From: Lactarius indigo
Taxonomy: Eukaryota > Basidiomycota > Agaricomycetes > Russulales > Russulaceae
Assembly: GCA_025766275.1 (NCBI GenBank)
Contig: JAFKAC010000064.1
Span: forward strand, 248,001 to 312,000
DNA: 64,000 nucleotides
Reading direction: 5' to 3'
In this document: one piece after another, positions 18,766-63,611 of the stretch
How positions within the stretch are numbered: the stretch's first letter is position 1
How the letters are laid out: each line of letters starts with the position of its first letter
Made by a program: the position numbers and the translations under genes
Notes under the pieces: model-generated
Told to the model about the DNA's origin: nothing
Databases searched by the model: none
The model's input: the letters and a program-made list of their open reading frames with translations, nothing else

Positions 18766-19229
18766 TGTTACGGTTGCGCGCATTGGACCCTTACTGTACC
18801 GGTTGTGGCTACGGCAGTAAGGTAGATTAGTCACGGACTCGGAGTTTACGAAGGAGTTAGGTGTTTAGAGATGACTCGATCCTGATACAGGTAGTAGTAG
18901 TATTAGGATTGCGGTACTTACGCGATACGTTGGACGCTACTTTACTGAGACTCATAGCAGCGCTTGAAAGCCTGCTCTGCTTGTATTTAAGATAGCTGCG
19001 GAAGACCAAGACACGCCATCTTGGTCTTCTTCAATCGTCACTTCTAGTCCCTTCCGTTCTCCCTGTTAAAGACGAGCCTTCCATCAAGAGAAGAGCTTTA
19101 TCCGATCCTAGTGTCTGCGTACATCTAGAACCTGCCTTCGAAAGCCATACGCCTCTGCGCGTGATCAGCTAAGTCGTGGAAGTCGCCTTAACCGAGCTCA
19201 AGTCGAGCTAACGTCGTGACGGCGTTACA
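18766..19229 (+). repeat. E4 5' LTR (family B)
   Basis: 464 bp, TGTTACGG to GTTACA. TATTTAAG is followed by ATCTTGGTCTT at 19018-19028. The left arm of the LTR hairpin has one change (AAGACCAAGAC), while the right arm, which must pair with the primer-binding site, is unchanged. Confidence 0.95.
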
Positions 19230-19231
19230 TT

Positions 19232-19242
19232 AAGACCAAGAT
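19232..19242 (+). promoter_or_regulatory. E4 self-priming primer-binding site
   Basis: AAGACCAAGAT starts 2 nt after the LTR and pairs exactly with 19018-19028. Confidence 0.85.
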
Positions 19243-19249
19243 ATTCACT

Positions 19250-21241: not shown

Positions 21242-24200
21242 ACCCATCGGCCTGGGTGAGGGCTTTAAATTGTAATTCTGTAATCATGACGCGCTTTCGC
21301 TCTCTTCGAATTCCAGTCTCGATTCGCACGAATTACCGAATGGCCGACATAAAAGCACTAGTGGACTCGGGAGCCACCGATAACTTCATACACCCAAATT
21401 TCGTCAGGAAAATGGGCATAGGGACCCAACAACTAACCCAACCACGGAAGGTCTGGAACATAGACAGTACGGAAAATAAAGCTGGGTCCATCACTCATTT
21501 CACCGACCTGAATGTATACGCCAACGGATACCACAGGACCATGAGATTCCTCATTACAAACCTTGGAAACGAAGAGGTTGTCTTAGGATATCCCTGGCTG
21601 GCAACCTACGAACCAACCATTAACTGGCGAGACGCAGTAATACATGAAAAGGTCATGCCGGTCGTGATCAGTACGCAGGACAGTCTGAACCATCACACCG
21701 TTATCGCGACCGCTCTAACTAACGATGAAAAGGAAGCGATAAGCCTCGAACTAGACGAAGAGGACACGTACTTGCGAGCAACTACGTCCACAGAGTTGGC
21801 AATCCAAGCCAAAAAGGAAGAAGAGCCTGTAGAGCTGCCGGCAGTCTATCACGCTTTCCAACAACTTTTCAGCGAAGAGGCGTCACAACGATTCCCCCCT
21901 GCCAGGCCGTGGGACCACGCAATAGACTTCAAGCCGGGTACCCCTTCAGCTATAGACTGCAAAATATACCCGTTGACACAAGAAGAAGAAGGGAAACTCA
22001 AGGAATTTTTAGACGAGAAATTGCAGCAAGGATATCTGCGACCTTCCATATCTCCGTACGCATCTTCATTCTTCTTCGTCAAAAAGAAGGACGGAAAACT
22101 ACGCCCCGTACAGGACTACCGCACCATCAATTCGTATACCATACGAAACCAATATCCACTCCCGTTGATTCAAGATCTCATTTACGACCTCAGTAATGCC
22201 TACATTTATACGAAGCTCGACATCCGCTGGGGATATAATAACATCCGAATACGAGACGGTGATCAGGAGAAGGCGGCCTTCAAGACCAAGTTTGGCCTCT
22301 TCGAGCCGACAGTCATGTTCTTCGGTCTCACCAACTCGCCGGCCACCTTCCAAACAATGATGAACCACATTTATCGTGACACCATCGCAAAGCACGAACT
22401 CCGAGGCACCGTCATCCGCGTCTACATGGACGACATTGGCATCGCCACACGAGAAGGCGCCACGTCCGCTGACCACATAGCCGCGGTGACGGACGTTCTT
22501 CGCGTCGCCCAGGAACACGACCTCTACTTCAAGCTCGAAAAGTGCCTTTTCCACCAACCTCGGATGGATTACCTGGGGGTAATCCTTGAAAAGGGGGTAA
22601 CACGTATGGACCCGGTAAAAGTTTGCGGCATCAGAGACTGGCCGACACCAACCAAGGTCAGGGACGTACGGTCATTCCTGGGTTTTTGTAACTTTTACCG
22701 CCTTTTCATCCGAGGTTTCGCAACCCACGCACGACCACTCAACCGGCTGACAAGGAAAGATGCCGAGTGGAACTGGGGAGACGATGAAGAACGGGCTTTC
22801 AAAACCCTAAAACGACTCGTAACGGAAGAACCGGTACTGGCACACCCCAACCTACAAGACCAGTTTGAGCTAGAGGTCGACGCGTCAGGATTCGCGGTAG
22901 GCGCAGTACTCCTACAAAAGAAAAATGACGGTCGCAAGCACCCTATAGGATACTACTCGGCAACGCTGAACGAAGCGGAATGAAATTACGACATTTACGA
23001 CCTAGAACTCCTCGCCATAGTCAAAGCTCTTCGCCACTGGAGACCTCTGCTCGCAGGGTCTCCGCACAAGATCAAAATATTCTCCGACCACCTAAATCTC
23101 CAGTACTGGAAAACTCCGCAAAAGATTAGTCGGAGGGTCGCTCGAGAAGTACTAGAATTAATGGAGTACGATTTCGAGATCCATCACATCAAAGGAAAGA
23201 ACAATGGCAGGGCGGACGCGCTATCACGACGACCAGACTACGACCAAGGAGAGGGAGACAACCAAGGTGTGGTCGTCTTACCTCCGGAAGTATTCATACG
23301 AGCTACTAATGCTGCGCGTGCATTGGAAACGCATCCGATGATGCAACCGCCGAAGCGACGACAGGATCCCGCCATAATCAAATCATGGGTTGATGCCCAC
23401 CACCTCAAAAAGATAGAAGGGGAGTGGTACAAGGACGGACGATTGGTAGTCACAGGACCCATGACAGCGTACCGGGCCATCATACAAGACCACCACGACC
23501 CACCAGTACACGGACACCCCGGAATAAGCAGGACGCAACGAATCGTAGAGCGACATCACTGGTGGCCAACTATCCGCCGGGATGTATATGAGTACGTCAC
23601 AGGGTGTGCGGACTGTCAGCGAATCAAAGTCAATACAAGACCAACTCGCGCACCTCTACACCCAATCACCGCTATCAAGGACGCCCCTCCCTTTCACACC
23701 ATCGCCCTCGACTTCATTACCAAACTACCGGCTTCGCAGTCATACGACAGTATCTTAACCGTTACTGATCATGATTGCAGCAAAGCGTCCATATTTATTC
23801 CCTGCAACGAAGAAATCACAGCAGAGGAGACCGCCATTCTGTACGTCAATCACGTATTCAAACGATTCGGACTACCGCGTAAAATTATTAGTGACCGAGA
23901 CCCCCGGTTTACCTCCAAATTCACACGAGAGATATGCCGCATACTGGGTATTCAACAGAATATCTCCACGGCTTATCATCCGCGCACGGATGGGCAGTCA
24001 GAGCGGACTAATCAATGGCTTGAACAGTACCTCCGATTCTGGGCCAACGAGCGTCAAGATAACTGGGCGGCGTATCTTCCGATAGCAGAATTTGCTCACA
24101 ACAATTGGCCCCATGAACACACGAAACAATCCCCATTCATGCTTCTGATGGGGTATAACCCGACCACCGATTGGACGGATAAGCCATCTCCAATCCCAAA

Positions 24201-25056
24201 CGTAATCACCAGACTAACACAACTAAAGGAAGCACGCCGGCTGGCCCAAGACCTCATCAAAAAGGCACAGGATAGCTGGGTTCGACACAAGGATACTCCA
24301 CGCTATCAAGTCGGTGATCAGGTGTGGCTGGAAGGAAGACATCTACGAACCAATCAACCCACGGCGAAATTGGCGGCGCGACGCCACGGACCATTCAAAG
24401 TGGTGCAGGTGATGTCCCCATACAATTACCGTCTAGAACTTCCCACGCAGTGGAGCATCCACCCAGTGTTTCACATCGATCTTCTCACACCATACAAGCA
24501 CACGGCCTTTCACGGCGAAAATTTCCCGCGACCGCCACCGGATCTTGTAGAAGGAGAAGAAGAATACGAGGTGGAGGCTATTCTAGACTCACGGCATTTC
24601 GGCCGCCGCAAAAAGCTCCAATACCTCATCAAATGGAAGGGGTATCCGGACTCGGAGAATCAGTGGATCGATAAGGATGACGTATTCGCCCCGGAAGCAA
24701 TAGAAGAGTACCAGGCGGGCCGAACGACTATACGACGCCTTAAAAGCCAATCTGGAGACGGCCAGGGAGAGTATCACCCCTACCTTCACTCCTCTCATAC
24801 TTCTATGCCCACCTCTCCTCTCAGACATGTCACCACGGCGATCCTCCTCGACCAAGTCGCACAAGACGCCGCCAACCTCATCGAAGACGACGAAGAAACC
24901 GTGGTTCAACAGGTCCAGCTCACTCCGTACACACCTGCAAACATACGAGCGGGGCATATCACCGCTCAAGAATGGGCTAATGTCCTACAGAGGTTCCCCG
25001 ACCCGACTCACCAGCCCGACGACGAGCAGCAGCATGCCGTCCCTCACATCTTCTGA
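21230..25056 (+). pseudogene. E4 pol: protease to chromodomain, one internal TGA
   Basis: The frame runs from the slippery site through protease (LVDSGATDNFI), RT (VYMDDIGIAT) and RNase H to TGA 22981, which is CGA (Arg) in E2. It then continues with integrase (HGHPGISRTQRIVERHHWW, CADCQRIK, ALDFITKLP, SDRDPRF), GPF module and chromodomain (YLIKWKGYPDSENQWIDKDD) to TGA 25054. A single reversion would restore the domain order. The terminal stop coincides with that of E2. Confidence 0.94.
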
Positions 25057-25962
25057 GACGACAACGGCAATCGAGAACCCGTCGCCATTATCCCCCCAGG
25101 TGACGACCTCATCGGCACGCGGGGAATTCTCCCTGCCGACCGCCCCATCGAAGACCCCACTGGAGTCAGAAGTAGCGGAGGACTGGCGGAGGATGGCGAA
25201 GGAGTGGGCCGACGAACAACTACGCTTAGCGCAGAGGAGGTTGAGCGAGTTGCGGCAGCGCAGGCAGCGCTCCCTCACGACGAGGCTCACGCTGACGACG
25301 AGGATTACTACCCGGTCAGACACCCCCTCCTTCGAACGCACAGCCACCCTACTAATCCCCGAATCACCCCATGGCTCGTTCACACCGACGGAACCGCCAT
25401 GTCTCGAGGACGTGTGCGACTGCCCGGCGTCGCATTTCACACCCCCATCACGCCCGACGACGACCCCGCGCAGGTCCTTGCGCCTGAAGGGTTCCGGGCG
25501 AATCGACAGCCCCATTACATTCACTTCCCCATCACCGGACCCGACGGCGTAGAGAGGAACGCCAGTCATGTGCAGATCGTAGGAGGTGCGAATCCGTTTG
25601 TGTTAGGGCTCATTCCTGGCTCCTCCCATCTCTACGGCAAACCCCTCTACGCCCATCCGATGCTATCGGCCGCGGGACGCGCCTTCATCGCCCACGAGGA
25701 CCTAGTTATCCTCGCCTCCGACAAGATCACGGACCGCGCACTGAACCGCATCGGGGATGAATCTCTGACTGCGGAGGTGACGCGCTACCGCGCCGCTGCA
25801 TATGAAGAAGAGCGGCTCGCGGCCCGCATCCGTCAACTCCAAGCCATGCGATTGTCGGCAAGGGACGACAAGAGGGACTGCATTTACCGGTTGGAGCGGG
25901 CTAACGTCTTCGAGAGGATTAGTGACGAGCAGTCTACGTGGACGGCGCGAGACTTTCGGTGA
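25057..25962 (+). CDS. E4 ORF3 region downstream of pol
   Basis: In the pol frame and open from 25057 to TGA 25960. An ATG-started frame of 252 codons begins at 25204. Conserved motifs are PGVAFHTPI, PEGFRANRQPHYIHFPITGPDG, GSSHLYGKPLY and ESLTAEVTRYRAA, followed by a charged helical tail (RIRQLQAMRLSARDD). The function is unknown. The position after integrase is where env or other accessory genes lie in related elements, but no signal peptide or membrane span is visible, so an envelope is unlikely. Confidence 0.7.
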   Translation, partial: DDNGNREPVAIIPPGDDLIGTRGILPADRPIEDPTGVRSSGGLAEDGEGVGRRTTTLSAEEVERVAAAQAALPHDEAHADDEDYYPVRHPLLRTHSHPTNPRITPWLVHTDGTAMSRGRVRLPGVAFHTPITPDDDPAQVLAPEGFRANRQPHYIHFPITGPDGVERNASHVQIVGGANPFVLGLIPGSSHLYGKPLYAHPMLSAAGRAFIAHEDLVILASDKITDRALNRIGDESLTAEVTRYRAAAYEEERLAARIRQLQAMRLSARDDKRDCIYRLERANVFERISDEQSTWTARDFR

Positions 25963-25992
25963 GTCTGGGGTCTCACGCTGAAAAGGGGGTGA

Positions 25993-26456
25993 TGTTACGG
26001 TTGCGCGCATTGGACCCTTACTGTACCGGTTGTGGCTACGGCAGTAAGGTAGATTAGTCACGGACTCGGAGTTTACGAAGGAGTTAGGTGTTTAGAGATG
26101 ACTCGATCCTGATACAGGTAGTAGTAGTATTAGGATTGCGGTACTTACGCGATACGTTGGACGCTACTTTACTGAGACTCATAGCAGCGCTTGAAAGCCT
26201 GCTCTGCTTGTATTTAAGATAGCTGCGGAAGACCAAGACACGCCATCTTGGTCTTCTTCAATCGTCACTTCTAGTCCCTTCCGTTCTCCCTGTTAAAGAC
26301 GAGCCTTCCATCAAGAGAAGAGCTTTATCCGATCCTAGTGTCTGCGTACATCTAGAACCTGCCTTCGAAAGCCATACGCCTCTGCGCGTGATCAGCTAAG
26401 TCGTGGAAGTCGCCTTAACCGAGCTCAAGTCGAGCTAACGTCGTGACGGCGTTACA
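25993..26456 (+). repeat. E4 3' LTR with polypurine tract
   Basis: 464 bp and identical to the 5' LTR by eye. It is preceded by a GAAAAGGGGG polypurine tract and TGA. The conserved block GTCTGGGGTCTCACGCTG lies between the ORF3 stop and the tract in families A and B. Confidence 0.95.
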
Positions 26457-27666: not shown

Positions 27667-29468
27667 GGTACGACCCCCAAGCGGACTGGACTGATAAGCC
27701 ATCCCCAATTCCCCTCGTAACCGAGTGACTGACACGGCTGAAAGAAGCTAGAAACGACGCCCAACGCCTTATAAAGAAGGCTCAGGAGTCATGGGTGCGC
27801 AACAAAGATACGCCCAAGTTCAGCGTCAATGATCTTGTGTGGCTCGAAGGCAAGCACCTTCGGACCAATCAGCCCACAGCAAAATTAGCGGCGCGACGCC
27901 ACGGACCCTTTCGGGTAACACAGGTGATGTCCCCTTACAACTATTGATTGGAACTTCCCACACAGTGGAGCATTCATCCAGTGTTCCACATCGATCTTCT
28001 CACCCCGTACAAACAAACCTCCTTACACGGGGAAAACTTCACACGACCACCGCCCGAATTGATAGATGGAGAGGAGGAATATGAGGTCGAGGCCATTCTA
28101 GACACTCGGCACTTCGGCAGAGGAAGGCGTCTCCAATACCTCATCAAATGGAAGGGGTATCCGGACTCGGAGAACCAGTGGATCAACAAGGACGACGTTT
28201 TTGCGCCCGAAGCGCTTCGCCTGTATCAGGAAATGCAAGCCCACGGCAGAAAGGATAAAGTGGGAGTGGCTCGGACAGAGGACAGTCATCCCCTCTTCCT
28301 TCGCTCAATCACTACTCTCATGCCCACCTCTCCATTGCGACATGTCACACAAGCGCAGCTCCTCGACTCCCTCGCAGAAGATGCCCGCGCCCTCTTGGCT
28401 GAGGACGACGACACCGAAGTTCCAAACACTCAGCTCACGCCATGGACACCTCTTACACCAGCAGAGGGGCCCATCACCGCACAAGAATGGATTAACGTCG
28501 TCACCAGATTTCCAGACCCAACAACTACCCCCGACGACGACCGAGCCGTCGTCCACGTCTTCCGAAACGATCGCGGCGAGCGCGAACCCATCGCCGCTAT
28601 CCCCCCAAGCGACGACCTCATCGGCGTTCGCGGAGTTTTCCCAAGCAATGACCAGCGTTCAAGTGCTGATGGAGTACGAGTTGGAGGGCTGGAAGAGGGT
28701 GGCAGCAGCGTGGCAGAAGGAGCAGTTGGACTCGGCAGCGGCCCGACTGAGGGAGATGCGCGAGCGACGGCAGCGATGGCGGCAGCTGAGGCTGGCCATG
28801 ACAACAAAGATTATTACCCGGCGAGACACTCCTTCCTTCGAACGAAACGCGACCCTCATAATCCCCTTGTCACGCCCTGGCTCATCTACACCGACGGCTC
28901 CCCCATGTATCGAGGACGTGTGCGCGTGCCTGGTGCCGCCGATCACTGTCCGTTCACCGCCGCCGACGACCCCGCGCATGTCATTGCACCTGAAGGGTTC
29001 CGGGCGAACCGACAACCCCATTATATTCGATACCCCATCACCGGACCAGACGGAGTAGAGAGGGACGCGTCGCACGTCCAAATCATTGGGGGGGCAGATC
29101 CCCTCATACTGGGGGTTATACCGGGCTCACCGCACGTCTATGGTAAGCCCTTCTACGCCGAACCCCACGTATCCGCCGCGCTTCACCCCACGTACCCGCA
29201 CGAGGACCTCGTCGTCTTCGAAGCGGACAAAATCACCGACCACGCACTCAATCGTATCAACGATGAGTCGCTTACCGCGGAGGTTACGCGCTTCCGCGCG
29301 GCCAGCTACAAGCTGGATCGACTTCGGGCCAGGGTGAGTCAGCTCCACGCAATGATCGAGTGTGCGCAAGACGACCGGCGGGACGCGATCTACCGTTTGG
29401 AGCGCGCCACTGCTTTAGAACGTATTGCCGACGAACAGCGTGATTGGCCCGCTCGAGACTTCCGGTGA
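27667..29468 (+). pseudogene. E3 pol, part 3: integrase end, chromodomain and fused ORF3
   Basis: Starts at GYDPQADWTDKPSP in E3 frame. TGA at 27727 and 27945 interrupt it; the second is CGA in E1. From 27948 the frame is open for 506 codons to TGA 29466. It covers the GPF module end, chromodomain (YLIKWKGYPDSENQWINKDD), a linker with REPIAAIPPSDDLIGVRG, and the whole ORF3 domain (PEGFRANRQPHYIRYPITGPDG, ESLTAEVTRFRAA). This copy shows that in family A ORF3 is translated as a C-terminal extension of Pol with no stop between. Confidence 0.9.
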
Positions 29469-29925: not shown

Positions 29926-30486
29926 TGTTACGATTTTCCGGACTCGTTCTTTTCCTTTTTCTCATTAACTCCCTACCTCCACATTACGAGCCCTGTATGA
30001 CTACGCGGACAATACGTTTACCTGGTTCCTATCACGCGCTTTGCTTATCATCGTTATCTTTTGATAAAGCTCGACAGGTGCTAGTTTCCGTTCACTTCTC
30101 AATCACGCGCAGACCCGCGTGATTCTCCCTTTGTTCCCGATACAGACCTCCTTTGTGCCCGTTATGTCTTACCTTTGTTCCCTGATGAGGGATGACCTTA
30201 CGCCCTCGCTCGTACTAAACATATTTAAGCCCAGTACTACCTAGCTTGTACGGTAGACTAGACTTCTTGTGTAATACTACACTCGTCTACGCAGAGTCTC
30301 TCGAACCTTCGATCCTCGCCTTACGCCAGACCTTCGCGCCTTGGCCCTCCTCTATAGTCCAAGTGACGTGTGTCCTTGTGACTCTTGTGCATCATTATTG
30401 CTGAAGTCGAGCCTTTGAGCTTGGACTACCAATTGTCTGACTGACTTAGTGCAGGTCGCACTCAACGCCCCTGTAGTGGCGTTACA
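29926..30486 (+). repeat. E5 5' LTR (family C)
   Basis: TGTTACG to GCGTTACA, 561 bp. TATTTAAG lies at 30222-30229, with AGACTAGACTT at 30255-30265, 33 nt downstream, as the presumed transcript start. The start-site sequence differs completely from families A and B. Confidence 0.95.
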
Positions 30487-30488
30487 TT

Positions 30489-30499
30489 AAGTCTAGTCT
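30489..30499 (+). promoter_or_regulatory. E5 self-priming primer-binding site
   Basis: AAGTCTAGTCT starts 2 nt after the LTR and is the exact reverse complement of AGACTAGACTT at 30255-30265. Both partners differ from the A/B pair and yet remain complementary, which is compensatory evidence for self-priming. Confidence 0.88.
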
Positions 30500-30507
30500 C
30501 TACCACC

Positions 30508-32142
30508 GTGGCTCTCACCAGCCGCAGCCGAACACAGTTTGTCAAGGAGTACCTGGAGCGACACCCCCACGACAACCTAAGGCCATCTATCAAGGGAACC
30601 GCCCTCTGGAGGAACACCCCACACGATGAAGGGTACTACGTTTACGACCCCGACAAACTCACATACGAGCCTATTGAATATATCAAGGACCAACATATCT
30701 GGGCCTACGTTGCCTACTCCGATACAAAACACTCCTGGTACTCATACAAACCCATTCCCGCACACCTTGGACTAGGACCAGGAAAAGGACAAATCAGCGC
30801 TATCGACGCAGATTCAGACGTCGAAGAACCATCCTCTGAACCAGATCTAGATAACCCTACCCTTACACCAACCATTCAACGCCCCATAGACTTTGCATCG
30901 TATGCCAACATGTCCACCACCCAACTCTCCACCACCCTCACCTCCTCGCAACCAACCGCAGGCTCCTCGACAACGAATTCTGCAAGTAGTGGAGGACATC
31001 CTGTGGGAGGAAGTATGTCAACAGGTGGAGGAGGCATTGCGGGAAGCGCAGGAGGCCATCATGGAGGCGGTGCGCCTGGAGGTGGAGGCGGTGCGCCTGG
31101 AGGTGGAGGCAGGGCGCCTGGAGGCGGAGCGGCAGCTGGCCCCGCAGCTGGAGGACCTCCCCAACCAAATGGACGACTCAGGGGAAACCCCCCACCCGAA
31201 TTCACAGGAGATCGGGAAGCCAGCCGAGCCTTCCTCAACGCATTCGCCTTATATCGAGGGATGAACCCAAATGTGCAACAACTCACCCTCCCATATTCGC
31301 GAGCAATGACGCTTCTATCCTACATTCGAGGACCGCTCGTCGACGATTGGGTAGAAGAGCAAATACAATGGCTGGCCGATCAACTAGCAGGCGGTGTGGC
31401 CATGAACGCTGAAAACCTATGGAACACCATTGAAACACGCTTCATCCAAGCGTACACCGACACTACTCAACAACAAAAAGCCCGCCACGCCATTCAGAAT
31501 CTACGAATGGATAAAGAAGACATCAACACCTACATAGCCAAGTTCTCTAATTTGGCCAACAAGGCGGGATACAATAAAGACGAAGCCACGACTTTAGAAA
31601 TCTTCCAGAAAGGCCTCCCGAATGCGTTAGTCATAAACGCAATCAAGTTCCATCACCCCATAGATTGGGACAATTGGAAAACAGCAGTCACGCTTCAACA
31701 AGCGGAATACCTTCTCCTTAAAGACAGACTCACCAAAGGAAGAACAGACAAGAAAGGGGGGGCCTCCCGCGACCAATGGCTAAACGCCCTCAACAAAACA
31801 AGAGACCCAAACGCAATGGACGTCAGTCGCACTCGCGCGAGAGCAGCAATGACAGAAGACGAAAAGAAGTTACTCCAGAAAGAAGGAAGGTGCTTCAGGT
31901 GCCGAGGACAAGGACACATCTCCTGATTTTGTCCCCAAAAGCCAACCACCACAATCAAAACTGCGAACACGAGCGACCCTACTCCAACCACTGCTACCAT
32001 TTCAATGACCTCATCACGTCCCCTCTCCAATGAGGAGCAAGCAGATGCCCAAGTAGCGGCCCTGTTCGCCCAAACCCCCAAAGTACGAGAACTAATGGTG
32101 GACAAGCTCTTCGGACAAAAGAAGGATTTTCTGAACGCTTAA
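30508..32142 (+). pseudogene. E5 gag, GTG start, one in-frame TGA
   Basis: GTG 30508 lies in the context ACCGTGG. The N-terminal domain is a distant match to that of families A and B (ALWRN, GYYVYD, PIEYIKDQHIWAYV). A Gly-rich run, the gag core (ALYRGMN, MTLLSYIRGPLVDDW) and a CCHC knuckle (CFRCRGQGHIS-x-FC) follow, where x is TGA at 31924, probably from CGA. The tail RELMVDKLFGQKKDFLNA ends at TAA 32140. No ATG occurs in the first 130 codons, so GTG or another non-ATG start is needed to make the conserved domain. Confidence 0.88.
32124..32130 (+). promoter_or_regulatory. E5 gag-pol -1 frameshift site
   Basis: GGATTTT in gag phase (G-GAT-TTT) lies exactly where families A and B have GGGTTTT. 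GGAUUUU is a known shifty heptamer in dianthoviruses. The pol frame is -1 and open across the site, and the gag stop is 10 nt downstream. Confidence 0.65.
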
Positions 32143-35100
32143 ACCCGGCGGCCTGGGCTAGAGCATTAAAACTTAGCATGTACAATAGCAGATTCCGATC
32201 CATGCGAATTCCAGTACTTTTCAAATCTGCTCACACGACGGCCGAACGAAACATCCTAGTAGACTCGGGCGCAACAGATAATTTTATAAGTGCAAACCTC
32301 CTGAAACGACTCAAAATAGCCTGGTTACCCACCGAACGTTCTATCAAAATATGGAACATAGACGGGACCCACAATCAAGGAGGAGAAATCACATCCTTCA
32401 CCGACCTTACCGTTAAAACCGGAGGGAAAACCCAAAACCTCCGATTCCTTATCACCAACTTAGGAAACGACGAGGTTATACTGGGATATCCTTGGTTCAC
32501 GGCTTTTGAACCCAAATTCCACTGGCGAGACGCCACGCTCGATGAAGAATTCCAACCAGTGGTCATTACCAGTCTGTATTTGTCCGACGAAGCCATGCCC
32601 CTTGAAGCAACTATCAAGGCATTGGAGACGTATCAACTGGACGAATCAGCCTGGGAACAGCTGCAAGAAGAGGACGAACCTTGCATCCGGCTGCGAAAGA
32701 CAACAACGGCATCAGAATTAGCACAGCAGGAAGCAGCGAAGAAACCTCAGAAAACCTTCAAGGAAATGGTCCCGGAAGAATACCGAAGGCACCAGAAAGT
32801 TTTCAGTGAAGAAGCATCTCAACGCTTTCCCCCCTCACGCCCGTGGGACCATGCCATAGATCTAGTCCCAAATGCCCCTGAGACAATGGACTGCAAAGTA
32901 TACCCACTCACGATCCCAGAGAACGAAAAACTGACAGAATTCGTAACCGAACACCTGGAGAAAAAATACATCCAACCGTCCAAGTCCCCTTACGCTTCCC
33001 CCTTTTTCTTCATCAAGAAAAAGGATGGAAAATTACGCCCGGTACAGGACTACCGTCGCCTTAACGAGTTAACCGTGAAGAATCACTACCCACTCCCCCT
33101 GATCCCCAAGCTTATCGACAGAATTCGAGAAGCGAAACTCTACTCGAAACTGGATATCCGATGGGGATACAATAATGTTCGAATCAAACAAGGGGATGAA
33201 TGGAAGGCGGCTTTCAAGACAAACCAAGGGTTGTTCGAACCATGAGTCATGTTCTTCGGCCTCACAAATTCCCCTAGTACATTTCAAACGATGATGGATA
33301 CCATTTTCCAAGAGCTGGTGTTGACGGGAGAAGTAATCGTCTACATGGACGATATTCTAATCGCAACTTCGGACAACCGCACCCACCATAGGACAGTACT
33401 ACACCAAGTTCTCGACCTCTGTGATAAACACGACTTGTACATCAAGCCAGAAAAATGCGTGTTTGAGGTCTACGAGGTGGAATATTTGGGGCTGATCATT
33501 GGGCATGGACGACTACGGATGGACCCAGTTAAAGTTCAAGGAGTCCGGGACTGGAAGGCGCCGACGTCACTTAAGGAAGTATGAGCCTTTCTGGGATTCT
33601 GCAATTTCTACCGGCGATTCATACGGGGGTTTTCTACAATTGCAAGACCCCTCCATGACCTTACAAAGAAGGACACCCCTTGGGAATGGACGGAGATCAG
33701 ACAGAAAGCTTTTGATACCATCAAGGGACGAATTAGTTCGGAACCAGTCCTATTATTCCCAAAACTAGATCAACCCTTCGAAATCGAAGTCGATGCCTCA
33801 GGATACACCCTAGGCGCCGTCTTAAATCAGAAAGGAGAAGACGACAAACTCCACCCAATCGCGTTCTATTCGGAGTCCTTATCCGAAGCAGAACACAATT
33901 ACGACATCTACGATAGGGAACTACTGGCAATCGTCAAAGCATTGCGAACTTGGCGCACGTATCTCGTAGGATCCCCCCACTTAATAACCATCCACACAGA
34001 CCATGCAAATTTGCAATACTGGAAGGAGCCCAGAAAAATCAATCGACGAGTTGCACGAGAATTTCAAGAACTATCGGAGTACAACTTTGTACTCAAACAT
34101 ATCTCGGGCAAGAAAAATACCCAGGCCGACTCATTATCAAGACGACCTGATTACAACGACGGTACCAACGACAACGATCACGTCACGGTACTTCCAGAGG
34201 AGGTCTTCCTCAAAATAACTCGTACATCCATGCACGATATGGATATATGGACCCAAATCACGCAAAACATGGACGAGGCAACACTCCTCCCATGGATCGA
34301 GCTGCACAATTTGAAAAAACACGATGGGCTTTGGTGGAAGAACGACGCCCTCGTTGTTGTGGGAAACAATGATCTTAAACGGGGGGTAATCACCTTTTTC
34401 CACGATACTCCAAGCGCCGGACACCCGGGAATCGCAAATACCCTAGAGCTGGTACGACACGACTTCTGGTGGCCAAATATGCGCAAAGATGTGGAGGCCT
34501 ACGTCAAGGGATGTGCAACATGTCAAAGCAACAAGATTAATTCCCACCGACAAAAACCACACCTATTTCCCATCACTACTGAACCAGAGGCCAAACCATT
34601 CGAGGTGGTAGCCATGGACTTCATAGTCAAACTCCCACTATCAGGGGGGTTCGACTCAATCCTCACCATCACAGACCACGATTGCTCGAAGGCGGCAATA
34701 TTCATACCTTGCAACGAAACCATAACATCAGAAGGAGTGGCCAAACTTTATCTCCAACACGTATACCCTCATTACGGCCTACCCCGAAAAGTCATATCCG
34801 ACCGAGATCCAAGATTCGCATCCACGTTCATGAGGCAGTTGTGCAAAACCTTAGGAATACAACAGAATATATCTTCCGTGTACCACCCACAGACGGACGG
34901 CCAATCCGAACGTACCAACCAGTGGCTAGAACAATATTTACGACACTGGTGTAACGTGCAACAGGACAACTGGGCCGAACTCCTACCAATGGCCCAGTTT
35001 GCCCACAATTCCTGGAAAAACGCCACTACCAAACACTCTCCCTTCTCACTCATCATGGGATGGGAACCACGAACCATGTGGACCCCTAAACCGTCCAACA

Positions 35101-35672
35101 ATCCCACGGTGGACCAAAGACTAGAGGAGTTACTGATACTCCGCCAGCACGCGCAAGACAGCATCACACATGCGCAACACCTCATGACACAACGAGGGAA
35201 AAAGGGGTTCACACCTTATCAGCAGGGGGACCAAGTATGGTTAGAAGGAACCAACCTTCGAACTTTCTACCCCACAAGCAAGCTAGCTCCGAAGCGATAT
35301 GGACCCTTTAAGATCGCCAAAGTTCTATCAGACGTTTCCTACGAGCTAGAACTCCCGAAGGCATGGAAGATACACCCAGTGTTCCACGCAAACCTTCTCA
35401 CCCCATATAAGGAGATGGAGATGCACGGCGCAAACTATACCCGACCTCCGCCGGACCTTATCGATGGCGAAGAAGAGTACGAAGTGGAACGAATTGAAGA
35501 CACTCAGGAACGAGGAAGAGGGCGCAAACTCCACTACCTAGTAAAGTGGAAGGGATTCCCACCGAGTGATAACACGTGGGAACCCGCAAGTAACATGACC
35601 CACGCCGCAGACGTCATCAAAGACTATTACCGACGATATCCGACCGCCAAAGGGGCTGGACGAACAGCATAA
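32131..35672 (+). pseudogene. E5 pol: protease to chromodomain, two internal TGA codons
   Basis: Protease LVDSGATDNFI; RT with KLDIRWGYNNVRI, TGA at 33243, then FFGLTNSPSTFQ and VYMDDILIAT; TGA at 33582 in EV-x-AFLGF, where the other elements have Arg; RNase H (EIEVDASG); integrase (AGHPGIANTLELVRHDFWW, CATCQSNK, AMDFIVKLP, SDRDPRF); KYGPFK-type module; chromodomain ([17 protein letters not shown]). Ends at TAA 35672. The domain set is complete and only two codons block it. Confidence 0.94.
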
Positions 35673-35710
35673 AAGACATCCTTCATCACATTATACCCCT
35701 CAGCCCAACA

Positions 35711-37159
35711 ATGACCGACACCCCAGTATCCGACACCACCCTCGTCCACATCCTCGACAACCCTCAACTCGAAGCCGTCCTCGAACGAGGGCTCGTCACC
35801 ATCGACCTCTCCGACATCCCCCGCCTATCATCACCACCATCCCCCCGACACACCGACATTGCCGACCATGTCCTCATCGAACGAGAACCCGGAGAACTTA
35901 CCCCGTCAACACCCGAGGAAGGACAGTACTCTCCGACACCCCCCCCTCAGCAACAGTCAACCCCTCCACCCAAACCACGGCCTCAGTCACCAACATCCTC
36001 TCCATCATCTACGCCACCCCCACCGCTAGAACCATTCACCCCAGTCCGCGTCCACACCCCCATTGACTATGACCGACCCAACTCCCCTCCTAACGACACA
36101 GATGACCCTGGGGCCCCATTTTTCCCGAACACCTTGGGAACCCCCAAGTACTATCCATTACAGATCCCACTACCAGACGGTGGATCCAACCCTGCGAAGT
36201 ATATCTACTATCGCAAGGGGTTCACCGAGGTAGTGGGAACAATGGGTGCAGGGCAACCCCACTACGGAGAGGAGGTCTATCTCTCGTCGCTTAGGCCGAA
36301 TGTCTCTGCTCCCCCCTTTACAGCCAAACAGCTCCAGTTCTTCGACCCCCACGACATTCGCACTTGCGCCCTGGATGAAACCCTCGTCGAGCTCAATTCA
36401 CCACGACTTACTGCCGAGATCACCAGGCTACGGACGGGGCTCTTGGCACTTAAAGAGATCGACAAGAAGTGCGAAAAACTGGAGGAGGACGCACAGAAGT
36501 TGCGATCGGAGCGACTTACTGTGGACTTAATGCTAGCTAGCACAAAGAGGCAACTTCAATATGCGGGGGCGCTGGCTACCATCGGCAACGAGTATGCGCG
36601 TATGACAGCCCTACCAACCCCACTCCGCTACTCTCGGTACGCTATCCCATTTTCCCCACGACGCGGGGGACCATTAGAATTCCCTCGCCTTGCCGATAAA
36701 CCCCATTGTCGACGCTGCTATCACTGCAACAGCCCCCACCACCTTGTACGCGACTGCCCCACCAGACCTCGACCAGCGTGCCGTCATTGTCAAAGTCAAG
36801 AGCATCAATCCTATCGATGCATCTTCCGACGAGCGGGCATGGTCGAAGAGGTGATTACAACCTACCAAGCCGATGAACGTATATGACAGGCAGTAGCTAC
36901 GGAGGCCACCACCTCGTTCACGGTCCCCAAACCACCGACCGTCGCGGCCCAAGTTCAAGGGAGGTGGTGCGGACGGTGCTTCCGCACTGATGCCAACCAT
37001 GACGAGATTCGCTGCCCACAGTACGAAATGTGTCGTAAGTGCGGCAGACGCGGCCCTTTCCTCTTCCTCAAAACACATTACTGCCAGCTCGACATTTCTC
37101 CTTGGCCGGAGAATAATTTGGACGCTGACATCTACGACCTCGTTGATCTGGAGTGTTGA
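35711..37159 (+). pseudogene. E5 ORF3: separate accessory protein with CCHC zinc knuckles
   Basis: A separate ATG frame starts 38 nt after pol, in a different frame. It has a Pro/Ser/Thr-rich N-terminus, the ORF3 core domain (VRVHTPI, YYPLQIPLPDGG, QPHYGEEVYLSSLRP, LTAEITRLRTGL) and a predicted coiled coil around residues 235-300. Two classic zinc knuckles follow, CYHCNSPHHLVRDC and CRHCQSQEHQSYRC. After TGA 36884 the frame continues with further Cys/His motifs (CGRCFRTDANHDEIRC, CRKCGRRG) to TGA 37157. The knuckles suggest nucleic-acid binding. E6 carries the same gene. I know no named family for it. Confidence 0.82.
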
Positions 37160-37193
37160 AGCCGAGGCGTCTTCAAGTCTGGACGGGGGGTAA

Positions 37194-37754
37194 TGTTATG
37201 ATTTTCTGGACTCGTTCTTTTCCTTTTTCTCATTAACTCCCTACCTCCACATTACGAGCCCTGTATGACTATGCGGACAATACGTTTACCCGGTTCCTAT
37301 CACGCGCTTTGCTTATCATCGTTATCTTTTGATAAAGCTCGACAGGTGCTAGTTTCCGTTCACTTCTCAATCACGCGCAGACCCGCGTGATTCTCCCTTT
37401 GTTCCCGATACAGACCTCCTTTGTGCCCGTTATGTCTTACCTTTGTTCCCTGATGAGGGATGACCTTACGCCCTCGCTCGTACTAAACATATTTAAGCCC
37501 AGTACTACCTAGCTTGTACAGTAGACTAGACTTCTTGTGTAATACTACACTCGTCTACGCAGAGTCTCTCGAACCTTCGATCCTCGCCTTATGCCAGACC
37601 TTCACGCCTTGGCCCTCCTCTATAGTCCAAGTGACGTGTGTCCTTGTGACTCTTGTGCATCATTATTGCTGAAGTCGAGCCTTTGAGCTTGGACTACCAA
37701 TTGTCTGACTGACTTAGTGCAGGTCGCACTCAACGCCCCTGTAGTGGCATTACA
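37194..37754 (+). repeat. E5 3' LTR with polypurine tract
   Basis: 561 bp, eight CpG transitions from the 5' LTR. The tract GGACGGGGGG followed by TAA precedes it. Confidence 0.95.
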
Positions 37755-37859: not shown

Positions 37860-39164
37860 TCAGAGAACCAGTGGGTCAACAAAGACGACATCTTTGCGCC
37901 CGACGCCCTTCACCTATATCAGGAAGCACAAGCACACAGAAGAACAGTTAAAACAAGCAGGATAAAGACAGCGGAAAGTCATCCCCTCTTCCTCCACTCC
38001 ACCATCTCTACTCTCATGCCCACTTCTCCCCTGCGCCATGTCACCCAAGCAGCACTCCTTGACTCCCTCGCCAACGACGCCCGCGCACTCCTGGAAGACG
38101 ACGCCGACACTGAAGTTCCCAATACCCAAATCACACCATGGACTCCTCTCCGACCGCAAGAGAGCCCCATCACCGCGCAAGAGTGGGCGCACGTCATCGC
38201 CAGATTCCCAGACCCCACGCAACACCCCAACGACGAACACGCTGTCGTCCATGTTTTCAGAAACGAAGCCGGTGAGTGAGAGCCCATCGCAGCCATCCCC
38301 CCAAGCGACGACCTCATTGGCGTTCACGGAATTTTCCCGAGCAACGACGAGCGTTCAAGCTCTCCTGGAGTATGAGTTGGAGGGCTGGAGGAGAGTAGCG
38401 GCGGAGTGGCAGAAGGAACAGTTAGACTCAGCCGTGGCCCAACTGAGGGAGATGCGAGAGCGGTGGCAGCGATGGCGGCAGCTGAGGCTGGCCATGACGA
38501 CTCAGATTACTACCCGGCGAGACACCCCTTCTTACAAACAAAACGCGACGCTGATAATCCCCTCATCACGCCATGGCTCGTCTACACTGACGGGTCCCCC
38601 ATGTATCGAGGACGTGTGCGAGTCCCTGGTGTCGCCGAACACCGTCCGTTTACCGCCACCGAAGACCCCGCACATGTCATTGCGCCTGAAGGGTTCTGGG
38701 CGAACCGACGACCCCATTACATTCGATACCCCATCACCGGGCCCGACGGAGTAGAGAGGGACGCGTCGCACGTCCAGATCATCGGAGGGGCGGACCCCAT
38801 CATACTAGGGGTCATACCGGGCTCGCCACACATATATGGTAAGCCCTTCTACACCGAGCCCCACGTATCGGCCGCTCTCCGCCCCCAGTACCCGCACGAA
38901 GACCTCGTCATCTTCGCAGCCAACAAGATCACCAACCGCGCCCTCAACCGCATCAACGACGAGTCACTCACCGCCGAAGTTACGTGCTATCGCGCAGCAA
39001 GTTATGAACTCGACCGACTTTGAGCCCACGTCAGTCAACTCCGTGCGATGATCGAGTGCACACAAGACGACAGGCGTGACTCCATTTATCGACTTGAGCG
39101 CGCCACAGCATTGGAAAGGATTGCGGACGAGCAGCGAGATTGGCCACCGAGGGACTTCCAGTGA
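37860..39164 (+). pseudogene. E1 pol, part 3: chromodomain end and ORF3
   Basis: Resumes the E1 frame with SENQWVNKDDIFAPDA, then the linker and ORF3 domain (PEGFWANRRPHYIRYPITGPDG, ESLTAEVTCYRAA), to TGA 39162. Internal TGA codons are at 38277, 38373 (CGA in E3) and 39021. The final Arg of the C-terminus (DFR) is changed to Gln by another CpG transition. Confidence 0.88.
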
Positions 39165-43088: not shown

Positions 43089-44612
43089 ATGACCACCACT
43101 CCAGTTTCCAACACCACACTTGTCAACATCCTCAACAACCCCTGACTTGATGAATTCCTCGAACGAGGTGTCATCGTTATCAACATCACCAACATCCCCC
43201 ATCTATCACCACCACCATCAACCCCTAACTCCCCCCAATCCACTATGACCATTGACCCCATCCCCATCATCCCATGCTCCCCACTACGAGAACCAGGGGA
43301 GCTCACCCCATCCACACCAGAGGAGGGACAATATTCGCCAACTCCTCCTCCTCAACATGACCCAATACCATCACCACAGCAAAACCCAACACTGCCTCCT
43401 GTTCAACAACACCCCACTTCCCCACCAGAACCACCCACATTATCACCATCATCCACACCCTCCACACCACTGCTGCCCCTTGAACCCTTCACCCCAGTGT
43501 GAGTTCACACCCCCATTGACTATAACCGCCCAGAATCTCCCAAAGAAGACTCGGACAACCCAGGTGCCCCCTTTTTCCTGAACTGTCCTGGAACACCCAA
43601 GTACTACCCCCTTCAAATCCCACTACCTGAGGGTGGATTCAACATTGCGAAGTATATCTACTATCACAAGGGATTCACCGAGGTAGTGGGGGTGATGGGA
43701 GCTTGGCAACCACACTATGGCAAAACTGTCTATCTGTCCACACTCCACCCCAATGTTTCTGCACCTCCCTTCACCACAGAACAACTCCAGTTCTTCAATC
43801 CTAACAACATACGAGCTTGCACCTTAGACGAAACACTAATCGAGCTAAATTCTCCACACCTCACTGCAGAGGTCACTTGATTGCGCACTGGACTAGCAGC
43901 ATTAAAGGAACTAGACGAGAAGCACAAACAACTGGAGGAGGACGCCTGCAAACTAAGGGCCAAACGGCTCACAGTGGACCTGATGTTGGCTAGTACTAAG
44001 AGGCGACTACAGTATGCTGGCACCCTGACTACCATTGCTGATGAGTATGCTCGCCTCACTGCATTACTGACCCCCCTACGAAACTCCTGTTATGCCATTC
44101 CCTTTTCCCCTCAACGTGGAGGACCTGTCGAATTCCCCCACCTCGCCAATAAGCCATGGCGACGACGCTGCTATCACTGTAATAGCCCTCATCACCTTGT
44201 GTGCGACTGCCCTTCATGACCAAGGCCTGCCTGTCATCACTGCCAGAGCCAAGAACATCAGTCCCATCGGTGTATCTTCCACCAAACGGAGATGGTGGCC
44301 GAGGTTATCACCACACAACAAGCGGAGGAATGGATATGTCGAGAAATGTCCCCTGACACCACTACTTCATTCATGGTCCCCTCTCCTCCGACCAGCATAG
44401 CAGCAACTCAAGGACGGTGGTGCGGGCGATGTTTTCATCAGGATGCGAATCATGATGAGATCTGTTGCCCGCAATATGAGATGTGCCACAAGTGTGGAGC
44501 CCGAGGACCACTCTTCTTCCTCAAAACTCATTACTGCCAAATGGACGTGTCAGAATGGCCTGAAAATGACTTGAGTGCTGACATTTACAACTTGGTCGAT
44601 CCAGAAGCGTGA
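43089..44612 (+). pseudogene. E6 ORF3: accessory protein with zinc knuckles
   Basis: ATG 43089 lies 42 nt after pol. TGA codons at 43143, 43500, 43878 and 44217 interrupt a frame otherwise collinear with E5 ORF3. They replace Arg where E5 can be aligned. Kept features are LEPFTPV, QPHYGKTVYLSTLHP, the helical LEEDACKLRAKRLTVDLM, knuckles CYHCNSPHHLVCDC and CHHCQSQEHQSHRC, and the terminal CGRCFHQDANHDEICC. Conservation between diverged E5 and E6 shows protein-level constraint. Confidence 0.82.
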
Positions 44613-48283: not shown

Positions 48284-49986
48284 ATGTCTTCGACTTCCGA
48301 GATATTGAGGGCTGGGTCACCATCCGCTTCCCCGGACATTAAGAAAATGTAGGTGTATATTTTACGATATTACTATAGCGGTTTATCTCATCCCTTGCCG
48401 ATCTTTCGCAGAGCTTCCCCTCTTGTACGTTTGGCCTCGTTCTGCCAACGTTCTGTTGTCCATGCTACCAATATCCTCAACCATGCACATAGCTCTTCGG
48501 CCCTCTATGCAACTGGGCTCTGTTCGGCGTCCTCTGTGTCCAGTTTTGTATGAGGCCTTTCCCTTGAAAGCTCGGCTTATTCCACTCACACACGTTCAGA
48601 CGTATACAGCTACAATTTTCCGAAAGACAGGCGATCCGTAAAATTTCTAGGTTGGTCTTTGACGTTTCATGGAAGCTTTGTGATGTCAACATTTCTTCTG
48701 AGAAGCTTATTTCGTTTTCCTGCTGGAGACCGCTCAAACTGCACTGAATGGGGCCGATGTCTACTATTGGTTTATTGCAGGATTTGGCGACGTGGAACGC
48801 CTCGCAAATTCCCATTTTGCCCCATAGACATTCCTATCATTACTGTAGTTATCGCGCTTGTCGTTCAAGCCTACTTCTGTTATCGAATTTGGGTGCTGAC
48901 TAGACGGTCGTGGATCTGTTGGGTCATTGCTGTCGTATGTATTCCTGACCCTCCTCGCATTCTTCAAACCGCTGACGGTTTCTTGGATACAGTGTACGGT
49001 TACTCAATCAGTCGGGGGTGTGTGGGCGGGCATCAAAGTTGGTTCTGCACGCACTGTACCGAAATGGCTCATCTCACGGCATTTAGTCGTTCATGGCTGG
49101 GAAATATGCAGTTTCCAAGGCAGGTATATATGTACGCACACTCTTTTTGATCAAAGTGGCTATACCGCCTGATACTTTGTCTTGTTAGTTATGGTCTACA
49201 TCAAGTGCCACGGCGGACATTCTGATTGCGGTGGCAATGATGTTACTGGTACGGCATCACCCTATCGGATCCTTTAGTGCATTGTTCTAGAATTTCTTTT
49301 GCACAGCTGAGAAAGACGACTGGCAAGCTCTGCAACTTCATATTAGTTCGCGTGATACGGCTTACTATTGAGACAAATGCACTTACTGGTATCTATCTCC
49401 CGGAATCACACAGGCGTGTATCTGACTCCTTGTTGAGCTAGCGCAGTTGTCATGACCCTTGTGCTTTATGTCGCCTTCCCCGTAAGTCGCACCGAGATAT
49501 GCTACGACCCACCAACTGACCTGGTCACATTGTTCATAGAACGATATATATTACGCATACACGTAGGTTCTCTTGACCCGTCACTATATACCTTTACGGC
49601 TGATGACTTGCAAAGTAGTGCGATTATTGGGAAACTGTGAGCGACAGATGCGCCATGTTACGAGTCAGAGCATTAACAAATGTGCCAGGTACTCCAACAC
49701 GCTCTTTGTGAGCCTCAACAATCGCATCTACTTCCGTGACCATCAATCGTCCGAATGTAGCGATAGCGCAAGCGTCCTGGACTTCGACCCGGTTCGTGCC
49801 ACCGCAGCGACGTCGCTCCATTTCGCCGGAACTGGGATACGGTCGCAAGTACCAACAGATGAGAGTTTCCAGCTCTCCACCAATACCCAGACAGTAGAGC
49901 TAAATAAGAGAAAAGGCGACGACACCAGCATTAACTGGTCTCTAGTAAGTACAATTACAGCTGCTATCCGATTCCAACTTTTCTGA
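48284..49986 (+). pseudogene. DUF6534-type membrane protein, copy 1 (broken)
   Basis: Twelve exons can be placed by analogy with copy 2: 48284-48348, 48412-48424, 48493-48547, 48600-48650, 48706-48934, 48993-49037, 49087-49131, 49189-49248, 49307-49388, 49438-49481, from 49540, and 49689-49986. Family motifs are PLLFGPLCNWALFGVLCVQ, LLETAQTAL, YYWFIAGFGD, CYRIWVLT, FILVRVIRLTIETNAL and YSNTLFVSLNNRIYFRDH. Exon 5 lacks one base near 48820-48823 (paralogues read HFAPID), and exon 11 has TAG after YYAYT. These lesions and a degraded TATA region indicate a pseudogene. The family has about seven hydrophobic helices and no established biochemical role. Confidence 0.82.
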
Positions 49987-52290
49987 ATGTTTCGATTCGC
50001 TGTCCAGTCCCACCCTAGGAAAGGTCGTCTGCTTTCTGATGACCCCGAGAGTGCGGTCGACACGTTGCCTCCCGTCCATAGTCAAAGGGGCGAGGAGTAC
50101 GTGATATAGTGAGAAGTTGGTAGCCATGGCGGCGTGGCTTGGCTTGGATGCTACTCTTGGCGCCACCATCATTTCGCTCCTGTACATGGGCAACGGAGAT
50201 TGGCTGCAGGATCGGACCCGGCGTCTCGCTGAATATGTGGGCCATTGCATTGGGAATGGCACACGTCTCGCGTAGATCGTGGACGTCTCGAGTCCCTAAA
50301 AATTAATTCCTCATATAAAGGCGATAGCGATGTATAATTCAGGCTCTTGACCTCCGGCTTCTCTTGTGACTAACACAATCTCTCTTGCGAGCTGTCTTCC
50401 CCACCATTCACTGCGATACGGACCAACCGACCAAGGCTTGTCTTCGATGTCTGGCCCGGTCCGGAAGCTTGTTCATGTCTATACTTTCCCTCACCTGGTG
50501 CACCTGGTCGTCGGACAGTCACGGATTGCCGCACTCCCCATTGAAACCCCGCTTGGCCTACTCAATTTCCAGTGTGGTATGTGCAACGTCAACATGCGGC
50601 GGACTACTAGATTATATGACCCTGAATTGTAGGCATCTTGTAGATACTATGGTGGTAATATGGTTGATGGGTATGCTGGGGGACTCTGCACAAGCAACCT
50701 AGGTCTGTCTTGTGGTCAGGAAGGTGCGAAGCTTCGCAACCGGTCGCGCCGGTCTCCGCGTGGTGTGAAACCTCGTAAGGACATTTTCTTCGTACAGGAA
50801 CATGGTATAATCGGATCTCTAAGGCTGCGCGCACATGCTGCGTTCTAGGTAACGCAAACAATAAACCACCTAGACTATATAGGGATCGGCGGCGCAACAA
50901 ATCGCGCACGTTCATCCATGACAAAAGATCTGGCCCGGAATACTAATAATTAGTGATATGATGTGCTTGGGTTTCCAAGGACGCGTATAAGTACAGAACG
51001 CTGGTGAACCCAACCACGCAAGCCGAGGGAGTTCTCTTGGCTGATGCCTCGGCTTACGACCTTTAGCAGGCAATTTCAGTAGCATTAAATGAAGGATACT
51101 CAAGCAAAATATTTTCAATTGTTTCCTGAAAAAATTAATTGTAATTTGAGTCGTTGGAACGCTGACCACCGTCTCGCAGCACTGTAGAAGAACCAAGTGA
51201 TCTATCTCGTCTCGTAAATACAGCGTGTCCCCAACCAGCACCAATCCACTCCGAGTTGGACAAAATGTAGAAACTGTGCTTCTGTTTCCAGCCGTTTGTT
51301 GTCTCAAGTTGTCATCTGGCAGTGAAGTTACTCCGCAGTTTGGATAGGTTTATAGCACCAATCCCCCAAAGAAGTCTGATGATGGCACCAAGATGGCACC
51401 ATCTCTGCACTGGCAGATTCTCGCTCTTCTGCCCTTGCTTCTGCCCCCCGAATGCGAGTCGTCGAACCGTCGAAGGACTGAAACGACAACAAGACTACAC
51501 GTACTAACTCACACTCGTGCCGTATTATGCCAGATTTTAAGACTATCCATAGCCTTTCCAGATATTCTCAGAGAGCTTCCGTACACGAAGCGTCTATGGG
51601 TTTTGTTGGGATTCAGTCCGGAACGTACACAGTCCGGCAAACCGAGGCTAGACCGACATATTAGATAATCGTAATATTACCGTAGTTAAACGGTTATCTA
51701 TGAATAATATCGTAAGGAGAGAGCTGGGTGACTTCCCGTAGGAATCTGGCGGGTCTAAATAATTATTAATACGGCTGTACCCGGAATGTGTAAGCAGGAA
51801 AATAAACTCTGGAAGGTTTGTATTTCCCGTAGACACAAGAAAAATCTAGAGGTGCTCATATCGTTATGACTTCTTTCGGGCTTGGTAGGCGACATGGCGA
51901 TGCAAGCTCATCCTCTCCGAGCCTGGTCGCCTTTCCACTGGCTCCGGCATATCGACATTTAGAGTTTAGAGCATTACAAAGATTCTGTAGGAGTAGAGGC
52001 TCCTTCAGATTTAAGGTCTGGAGGACGCAGTCGGTGTATGAAATGGCTTCTGTGAGGAGCGGCACCTCGGCGATCTGGAAAAAACTCCACTCTGGAGAAG
52101 AATTTAGAGGTTTCAGAGCCACGGGAAGCACCCGGCATCTACTTTGACCTCCATCGCTCCACGAGTTGTCACGTGTCACGGTTCACATATCCGACTGTCT
52201 CCGCCTCATACGTCTACAGGTCTGCCCATAAATACGCGTCTGCTTATATTTCAGTTTACCCCCCACGTCAGGTGGCCGAGTAGTTTGAAA
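49987..52290. other. Non-coding stretch between DUF6534 copy 1 and the P450
   Basis: The first ~430 bp match DNA downstream of copies 2 and 3, including a shared block CTTGACCTCCGGCTTCTC at 50346. The rest shows no gene. A near-perfect 11-bp inverted repeat at 51662-51700 flanks the palindrome GTAATATTAC. Confidence 0.4.
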
Positions 52291-56104: not shown

Positions 56105-56110
56105 TATAAA
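56105..56110 (+). promoter_or_regulatory. TATA box of DUF6534 copy 2
   Basis: TATAAA followed by GCCC lies 84 nt before the ATG. The same TATAA-GGCCC-like block precedes copies 3 and 4 at nearly the same distance. Confidence 0.65.
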
Positions 56111-56188
56111 GCCCGCCTTGTGGTCCGTGACCTCACAGTATCTACTCCGTGACAATATCCCCTCAGGCTATCCGAGCCCTTGATTTGA

Positions 56189-59819: not shown

Positions 59820-59826
59820 TATAAAG
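59820..59826 (+). promoter_or_regulatory. TATA box of DUF6534 copy 3
   Basis: TATAAAG followed by CCCTCTTTGTGG lies 79 nt before the ATG and matches the copy 2 block TATAAAGCCCGCCTTGTGG. Confidence 0.65.
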
Positions 59827-59898
59827 CCCTCTTTGTGGACAACAAACTTGCTGTCCCCACTGTTCACATTCTGCTTCTCGACATATACTGCGACACGA

Positions 59899-63514: not shown

Positions 63515-63520
63515 TATAAG
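63515..63520 (+). promoter_or_regulatory. TATA-like box of DUF6534 copy 4
   Basis: TATAAG followed by GCCCTCCTTATG lies 97 nt before the ATG and is homologous to the boxes of copies 2 and 3. Confidence 0.55.
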
Positions 63521-63611
63521 GCCCTCCTTATGATGGTTCGCGGCGAACGCGCTGTCCCACTACCTCGTCACGCTAATCTCCATCCCCCTCTCGACATATA
63601 CCACAGCGGCA

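Follow-up and report, generated by a model that had tools for sequence, protein, structure and literature searches.

The stretch of DNA analysed here, hereafter the window, comprises 64,000 nucleotides (positions 248,001–312,000 of contig JAFKAC010000064.1) of the 90.3-Mb, 291-contig genome of Lactarius indigo, an agaricomycete of the order Russulales. The subject of this report is open reading frame 3 (ORF3), an additional coding sequence located after the integrase and chromodomain in Ty3/gypsy retrotransposons of the window, and best displayed by the element E5. All features are on the plus strand unless stated otherwise. E5 is bounded by long terminal repeats (LTRs) at 29926–30486 and 37194–37754 that share 98.6% identity over 561 bases. 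Its gag frame (30445–31926, taken from stop to stop and overlapping the LTR end) matches Pfam Retrotrans_gag (1.2e-8) and terminates within its sole CCHC knuckle (CFRCRGQGHIS, then stop). Pol follows as a segment with protease and the start of reverse transcriptase (32034–33245; Pfam gag-asp_proteas and RVT_1) and a segment with RNase H, integrase, SH3 and chromodomain (33585–35672; Pfam RT_RNaseH, rve, SH3_Tf2-1 and Chromo), closed by a TAA at 35670–35672. This order, with gag, then protease, reverse transcriptase, RNase H and integrase, and finally a chromodomain, is that of Ty3/gypsy chromoviruses, and it is found in Pfam matches both to the pieces of E5 and to one frame of family D. Four families are distinguished: C contains E5 and E6, B contains E2 and E3, A is represented by the frame at 27948–29468 and a remnant at 38658–39131, and D lies outside the window. 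Equating these letters with those of a first-pass annotation, made from the letters of the window alone, is our own assignment.

In E5, a spacer of 38 nucleotides devoid of ATG (35673–35710) separates the pol stop from the ORF3 ATG at 35711, which lies in a frame different from that of pol. The first-pass annotation had described an independent ATG gene with CCHC knuckles and further Cys/His motifs at 35711–37159; start codon and motifs are present, but the frame is divided by a premature TGA at 36884–36886 into 391 residues (35711–36886) and 90 residues (36887–37159, open as far as 37157–37159), the latter carrying zinc modules 3 and 4. Uninterrupted relatives exist, since 8 of the 15 family C copies examined are free of interruption, and their ORF3 of about 482 amino acids consists of a proline-rich N-terminus, a core, a coil and four zinc modules. 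In E5 coordinates, the N-terminus (35711–36055) is less conserved, with a ratio of non-synonymous to synonymous rates (dN/dS, or omega) of 0.16 in C copies and, in one C relative, a proline fraction of 0.25 across the first 110 residues. The core (36056–36403), with the blocks HTPIDY, PLQIPLPDGG and PHYGEEVYL, is common to families A, B and D and to metagenome proteins. It is followed by a predicted coiled-coil (36404–36613) that begins with LTAEITR and is modelled by AlphaFold2 as a long helix, with a predicted local distance difference test score (pLDDT) of about 71–94 in blocks of 10 residues. A motif scan then locates modules 1 and 2, both CX2CX4HX4C (36716–36757 and 36779–36820), module 3, CX2CX6HX4C (36968–37015), and module 4, CX2CX11HX1C (37031–37084). 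On the minus strand, an open frame of 173 amino acids overlies the zinc tail (36674–37195), and another of 207 amino acids is found at 6873–7496 in copy L070; both antisense frames are perhaps a side effect of composition.

Comparison of copies gives solid support to ORF3 as a genuine accessory domain, maintained by selection, in chromodomain Ty3/gypsy elements of fungi. Pairwise Nei-Gojobori dN/dS, with copies containing stops and exact duplicates dropped, was obtained for families C, D and A, from 8 of 15, 20 of 22 and 27 of 30 copies, respectively (alignments labelled AB contain A copies only; the 15 C copies include E5 as well as L003 and L004, which are apparent duplicates of each other). 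ORF3 values are 0.056 in C, 0.083 in D and 0.088 in A, next to 0.070 (11 copies), 0.135 (14) and 0.046 (26) for the adjoining Pol segment. Selection of the D and A copies and of 7 of the 15 C copies by protein similarity can lower such ratios; C copies chosen by DNA similarity give 0.054 (four intact) and 0.060 (seven, broken ones included), with synonymous differences in C near saturation (median dS 1.08). The full span of 0.054–0.088, to be set against 1.3–3.5 when the C, D and A alignments are read in the two wrong frames, is far from the value near 1 that, according to the first-pass annotation, would have refuted its proposal.

The constraint is unevenly distributed: dN/dS is 0.030–0.065 in core and coil, 0.039–0.077 in the zinc tail and 0.13–0.22 in the N-terminus. 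Along C it descends from 0.26 at the N-terminus to 0.01–0.03 at the coil and first knuckles (0.01 at codons 321–380, which hold the knuckles), and along A it is 0.02–0.07 at core and coil and rises up to 0.72 in the linker, which puts the coil region among the most strongly constrained stretches of ORF3 in both families. Codon columns with two states, the minor one in at least three copies, have normalised non-synonymous to synonymous ratios of 0.02 (C), 0.04 (D) and 0.05 (A) in ORF3, and of 0.01, 0.07 and 0.002 in Pol, while ORF3 singletons have higher ratios (0.07 to 0.27); the pattern in shared columns is read as selection that acted while the elements were copying. These values show purifying selection on ORF3 in C, D and A, within the range of Pol, and ORF3 probably does a real job in element copying, because selection keeps it about as strictly as the enzymes of the element.

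The core is unclassified, with no match in Pfam, NCBIfam or PDB, and the CCHC knuckles are the one recognised part of ORF3. Low dN/dS and the lack of a profile match both uphold the first-pass proposal of an accessory protein or domain downstream of integrase that is under selection and belongs to no described class, devoid of resemblance in these databases to env, dUTPase or another described retroelement domain. In Pfam, ORF3 proteins yield the CCHC knuckle, with scores that exceed the cut-off for P0005 and P0009 from metagenomes and fall short of it for E5 and one further C copy, and otherwise weak sub-threshold matches, with dUTPase absent; NCBIfam gives nothing above cut-off in four ORF3 proteins, and a PDB profile search gives no match at E up to 1. 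Two candidate affiliations were rejected, namely DUF6347 (best E 0.032, in 2 of 10 members and short of the family cut-off) and an origin of the core in Gag, for which a profile comparison with one D Gag aligned 24 columns, at the knuckle. Errantivirus env genes occupy the position seen here for ORF3, and an envelope-like gene could be expected there. The maximal hydropathy over 19 residues is 0.65–1.17 in the five ORF3 proteins checked, which indicates that no membrane span is present, and the mean over the first 30 residues is at most 0.43, with no hydrophobic N-terminus by this measure; moreover, three families encode ORF3 within their Pol frame. The likeness to env is thus one of position, and the odds of an envelope function are close to negligible, as had been anticipated. 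Another type of function, suppression of host silencing through binding of RNA or of chromatin silencing factors, would suit the abundance of these elements (1518, 1854 and 1733 first-look candidates in the genome for three protein queries, in overlapping sets) and a more variable N-terminus that could contact host partners, both circumstantial arguments; strong constraint, not rapid evolution, characterises core and coil, and ORF3 resembles no known family, which renders such a role improbable.

The ORF3 domain is found in the same place, after the chromodomain, in the copies examined of all four families. In A, B and D it closes Pol at the C-terminus; in C it has an ATG frame of its own. Open frames of at least 600 amino acids occur at 92 of 119 scored places in A and 108 of 131 in B, and of at least 1500 amino acids at 51 and 64 of these places; in D, core, coil and zinc tail close a Pol frame of up to 1645 amino acids (at least 1500 at 8 of 22 places), these A, B and D counts referring to best-scoring candidates and not to genome totals. 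Among the matches listed, no place taken as C-type has an open frame longer than 559 amino acids. Zinc modules 1 and 2 are present in all 15 C and all 22 D copies, module 3 in 13 and 22, and module 4 in 15 and 20, respectively, while A and B proteins terminate after the coil and are devoid of them. A single contrast between a separate, zinc-knuckled form and a fused form, as first proposed, does not hold: fusion and zinc appear to vary independently, with core and coil as the common part, because D is fused and zinc-bearing and A and B are fused without zinc.

Relatives outside these families extend the picture. The closest named ones are two hypothetical proteins of L. indigo (86% identity over 72–76% of the query), and metagenome relatives are recorded as free proteins of 299–503 amino acids. 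Modules 1 and 2 are present in all four outside proteins scanned, out of seven: all four modules are found in P0005 (40% identity to C) and P0009 (36%), three in P0006 and two in the shorter P0003 from L. indigo; in P0004, P0007 and P0008 the sequence ends before the zinc tail or the tail is lost. When the four families are aligned with outside proteins, the invariant positions include those of PDG, YG and AE, and a profile of C, D and outside proteins aligns with the A-type core over 136 columns (probability 95.6, E 1.2e-8). In their integrase-chromodomain parts, A and B share 77% identity and the remaining five family pairs 55–66%. When A or B is compared with C or D, the ORF3 cores are 26–29% identical for three combinations, and the fourth, A versus D, gives no BLAST match. 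The ORF3 domain diverges faster between families than integrase but is under tight constraint inside each family tested. In a midpoint-rooted tree of 14 ORF3 proteins, A groups with B, C groups with the metagenome proteins at a support of 84/100, and D stands by itself, the tree program flagging long branches. If the midpoint root is right, fusion would be the older state and the free gene derived, a polarity that is not firm.

The two arrangements imply different modes of expression. In C, the spacer between the pol stop and the ORF3 ATG measures 37–42 nucleotides in all copies that could be scored (14 out of 15) and is without ATG in 14 of 14, and the offset between the pol and ORF3 frames differs (10, 3 and 1 copies). 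A programmed frameshift from pol into ORF3 is rejected because this offset varies between copies; the short, ATG-less spacer and the variable offset fit a restart of translation after pol termination, which would be the most likely mode. Whatever the function of ORF3, an internal promoter or a spliced mRNA is a less favoured but serious alternative to such a restart. A TATAAA, possibly a chance occurrence, overlaps the pol stop about 40 nucleotides upstream of the ATG in 10 of 14 scored C copies, and a YAG occurs in 10 of 14 spacers; the TATAAA is partly within pol coding sequence and missing from 4 of the 14 copies, E5 among them, and the position of YAG is not fixed. Concerning fused forms, gag shares 16 bases with pol plus ORF3, read in the -1 frame, in copy L069 of family D (1931–1946); the shared bases contain a T-run, an arrangement that looks like a -1 frameshift site. 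If so, the fused ORF3 would be made at the level of Pol, not of Gag. That the stop separating pol from ORF3 in E2 and E3 might be functional in B was also considered and rejected, as just 1 of 20 further B copies has it.

Given these features, ORF3 is best viewed, with a probability of about 0.45, as an integrase-linked, self-associating cofactor that would bind nucleic acid where zinc modules are present. It would travel with integrase in the particle at a low, Pol-like abundance and self-associate through its coil; the zinc modules of C and D, gained or lost as an add-on, would hold RNA or cDNA, and the protein would help the reverse-transcription or integration complex to form or to reach chromatin. 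The main reason for preferring such a cofactor to a second nucleocapsid is that ORF3 ends Pol in three families. Several observations weigh against it. Families A and B have no zinc modules, and the ORF3 protein of C, encoded in a separate frame, has no physical link to integrase. The Pol of family A is more constrained than its ORF3 (0.046 versus 0.088), and between families the core is much less alike than integrase. Fused relatives are missing from the protein collection, in a weak search by shared exact words over a limited length range, and two scans of viral contigs revealed no ORF3 relatives of any kind. Finally, structure searches, proposed in the first-pass annotation, brought no fold: the two AlphaFold2 models have mean pLDDT of 48 and 60, with low confidence outside the helix, the first being too poor for a structure search, and the better one, confident mainly in the helix, matched nothing in Foldseek (best E 7.5).

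The first-pass annotation had raised a second nucleocapsid-like or chaperone protein; on such a reading, the zinc array would bind genomic RNA beside the Gag knuckle and aid packaging, annealing or strand transfer. Modules 1 and 2 indeed share the CX2CX4HX4C spacing of retroviral and metavirus nucleocapsids, the single E5 sequence retrieves from PDB matches that are all weak (best E 0.029), mostly to nucleocapsid and LIN28 knuckles, the segment around these modules is basic (+4 to +15 in nine proteins), and the knuckles of C are extremely constrained, as described above. A typical nucleocapsid is basic, however, and the remaining tail of ORF3 is acidic (-1 to -9); two further modules have other spacings. 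ORF3 also lies outside Gag, after pol, and gag has its own knuckle in C (cut by a stop in E5) and D, so that the zinc tail of ORF3 is an addition to it. The fused forms would be made at the Pol level, and the zinc-less forms of A and B, in which the coil is kept, are left unexplained. As originally worded, the proposal is not supported, since it rests on a zinc tail that two families lack and the coil is among the most constrained parts; as a general function a second nucleocapsid is unlikely, although for the zinc-bearing forms it is possible.

The closest analogue found by position, size and general make-up, compared by description and not by sequence, is CERV of Cer1, a Ty3/gypsy element of C. 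elegans. The accessible text of PMC10309623 describes CERV as a protein of 517 amino acids that is translated from a spliced mRNA, is required for export of genomic RNA, and has a cysteine-rich loop as well as a potential leucine zipper. By analogy, ORF3 could be a regulator of unspliced RNA that self-associates through its coil and exports genomic RNA from the nucleus, and the family C protein, of 482 amino acids with a predicted coil, comes near to CERV in size. This likeness leaves a role in RNA export possible, at rather low odds: a fused ORF3, being the end of Pol, is hard to reconcile with a nuclear regulator unless it is cleaved, and, compared with the spliced CERV mRNA, the C spacer has no conserved YAG, an acceptor further upstream being possible. 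In that same text CERV has a gag-derived N-terminus and no four-module zinc array is mentioned, unlike ORF3 of C and D with its four modules. Extra genes in elements of other host lineages are similar in position and general idea, with the word zinc absent from the accessible paper text. An ‘add. ORF’ of unknown function and dUTPase domains are drawn in fungal chromoviruses (PMC2864245); these elements resemble the ORF3 hosts in being fungal, with a chromodomain and extra coding sequence, and the accessible text does not state where the ORF lies or what it is. The ‘add. ORF’ is possibly ORF3, which would make it a prior depiction. Otherwise, no published description of the domain was found by title or abstract start among the matches listed, a search that leaves most subscription papers and Repbase outside.

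LTR retrotransposons are generally thought to need gag and pol alone. An extra protein whose constraint in C, D and A is comparable to that on Pol, and which is present in many copies in one genome, suggests a step of the life cycle beyond gag and pol. The natural pairs, free against fused and zinc-bearing against zinc-less, allow this to be tested directly. In a broader formulation, held somewhat more tentatively than the cofactor role itself, ORF3 would define a new retroelement protein family after integrase, in which an old core and coil shift between a Pol terminus and a free-standing gene and, independently of this, gain or lose a four-module zinc array, providing a second nucleic-acid-binding protein besides Gag that is needed for transposition.

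The other copies in the window agree with the first-pass statement that all six elements have a homologous domain after the chromodomain: the core is found at six places, with the quoted blocks present. Apart from E5 (36053–36883), these are E6, within 43089–44606, where ORF3 has the layout of E5 (68% and 71% identity to the two parts of its ORF3) but is interrupted by four in-frame stops in its main match, so that its description as a gene of its own holds for the layout and not for an open frame; family A, with core and coil without zinc modules fused to the chromodomain frame (28881–29465, in the open frame 27948–29468) and a second, degraded copy of the core (38658–39131); and family B, with core and coil in E3 (25378–25959) and in a second copy, E2 (12499–13068). 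The E3 core was presented as an open extension of Pol. It does lie in the pol frame, but in E3 and E2 a stop (25054–25056 and 12175–12177, respectively) separates the chromodomain from the core located downstream. E3 (18765–26456) has LTRs identical over 465 bases and coding-region stops at 22981–22983 and 25054–25056; because identical LTRs coexist with these stops, E3 may be the product of a recent round of copying that relied on proteins from other copies.

At an E-value of 0.01, Pfam recognises none of six open frames taken from 48–63 kb. In the same part of the window (48312–63985), a stretch of 1.3–1.6 kb is repeated near 48.4, 56.3 and 60.0 kb with 72–73% identity. Between 257 and 29925 the elements seem to be nested, with pieces of one older family flanking E2 and E3 on both sides.
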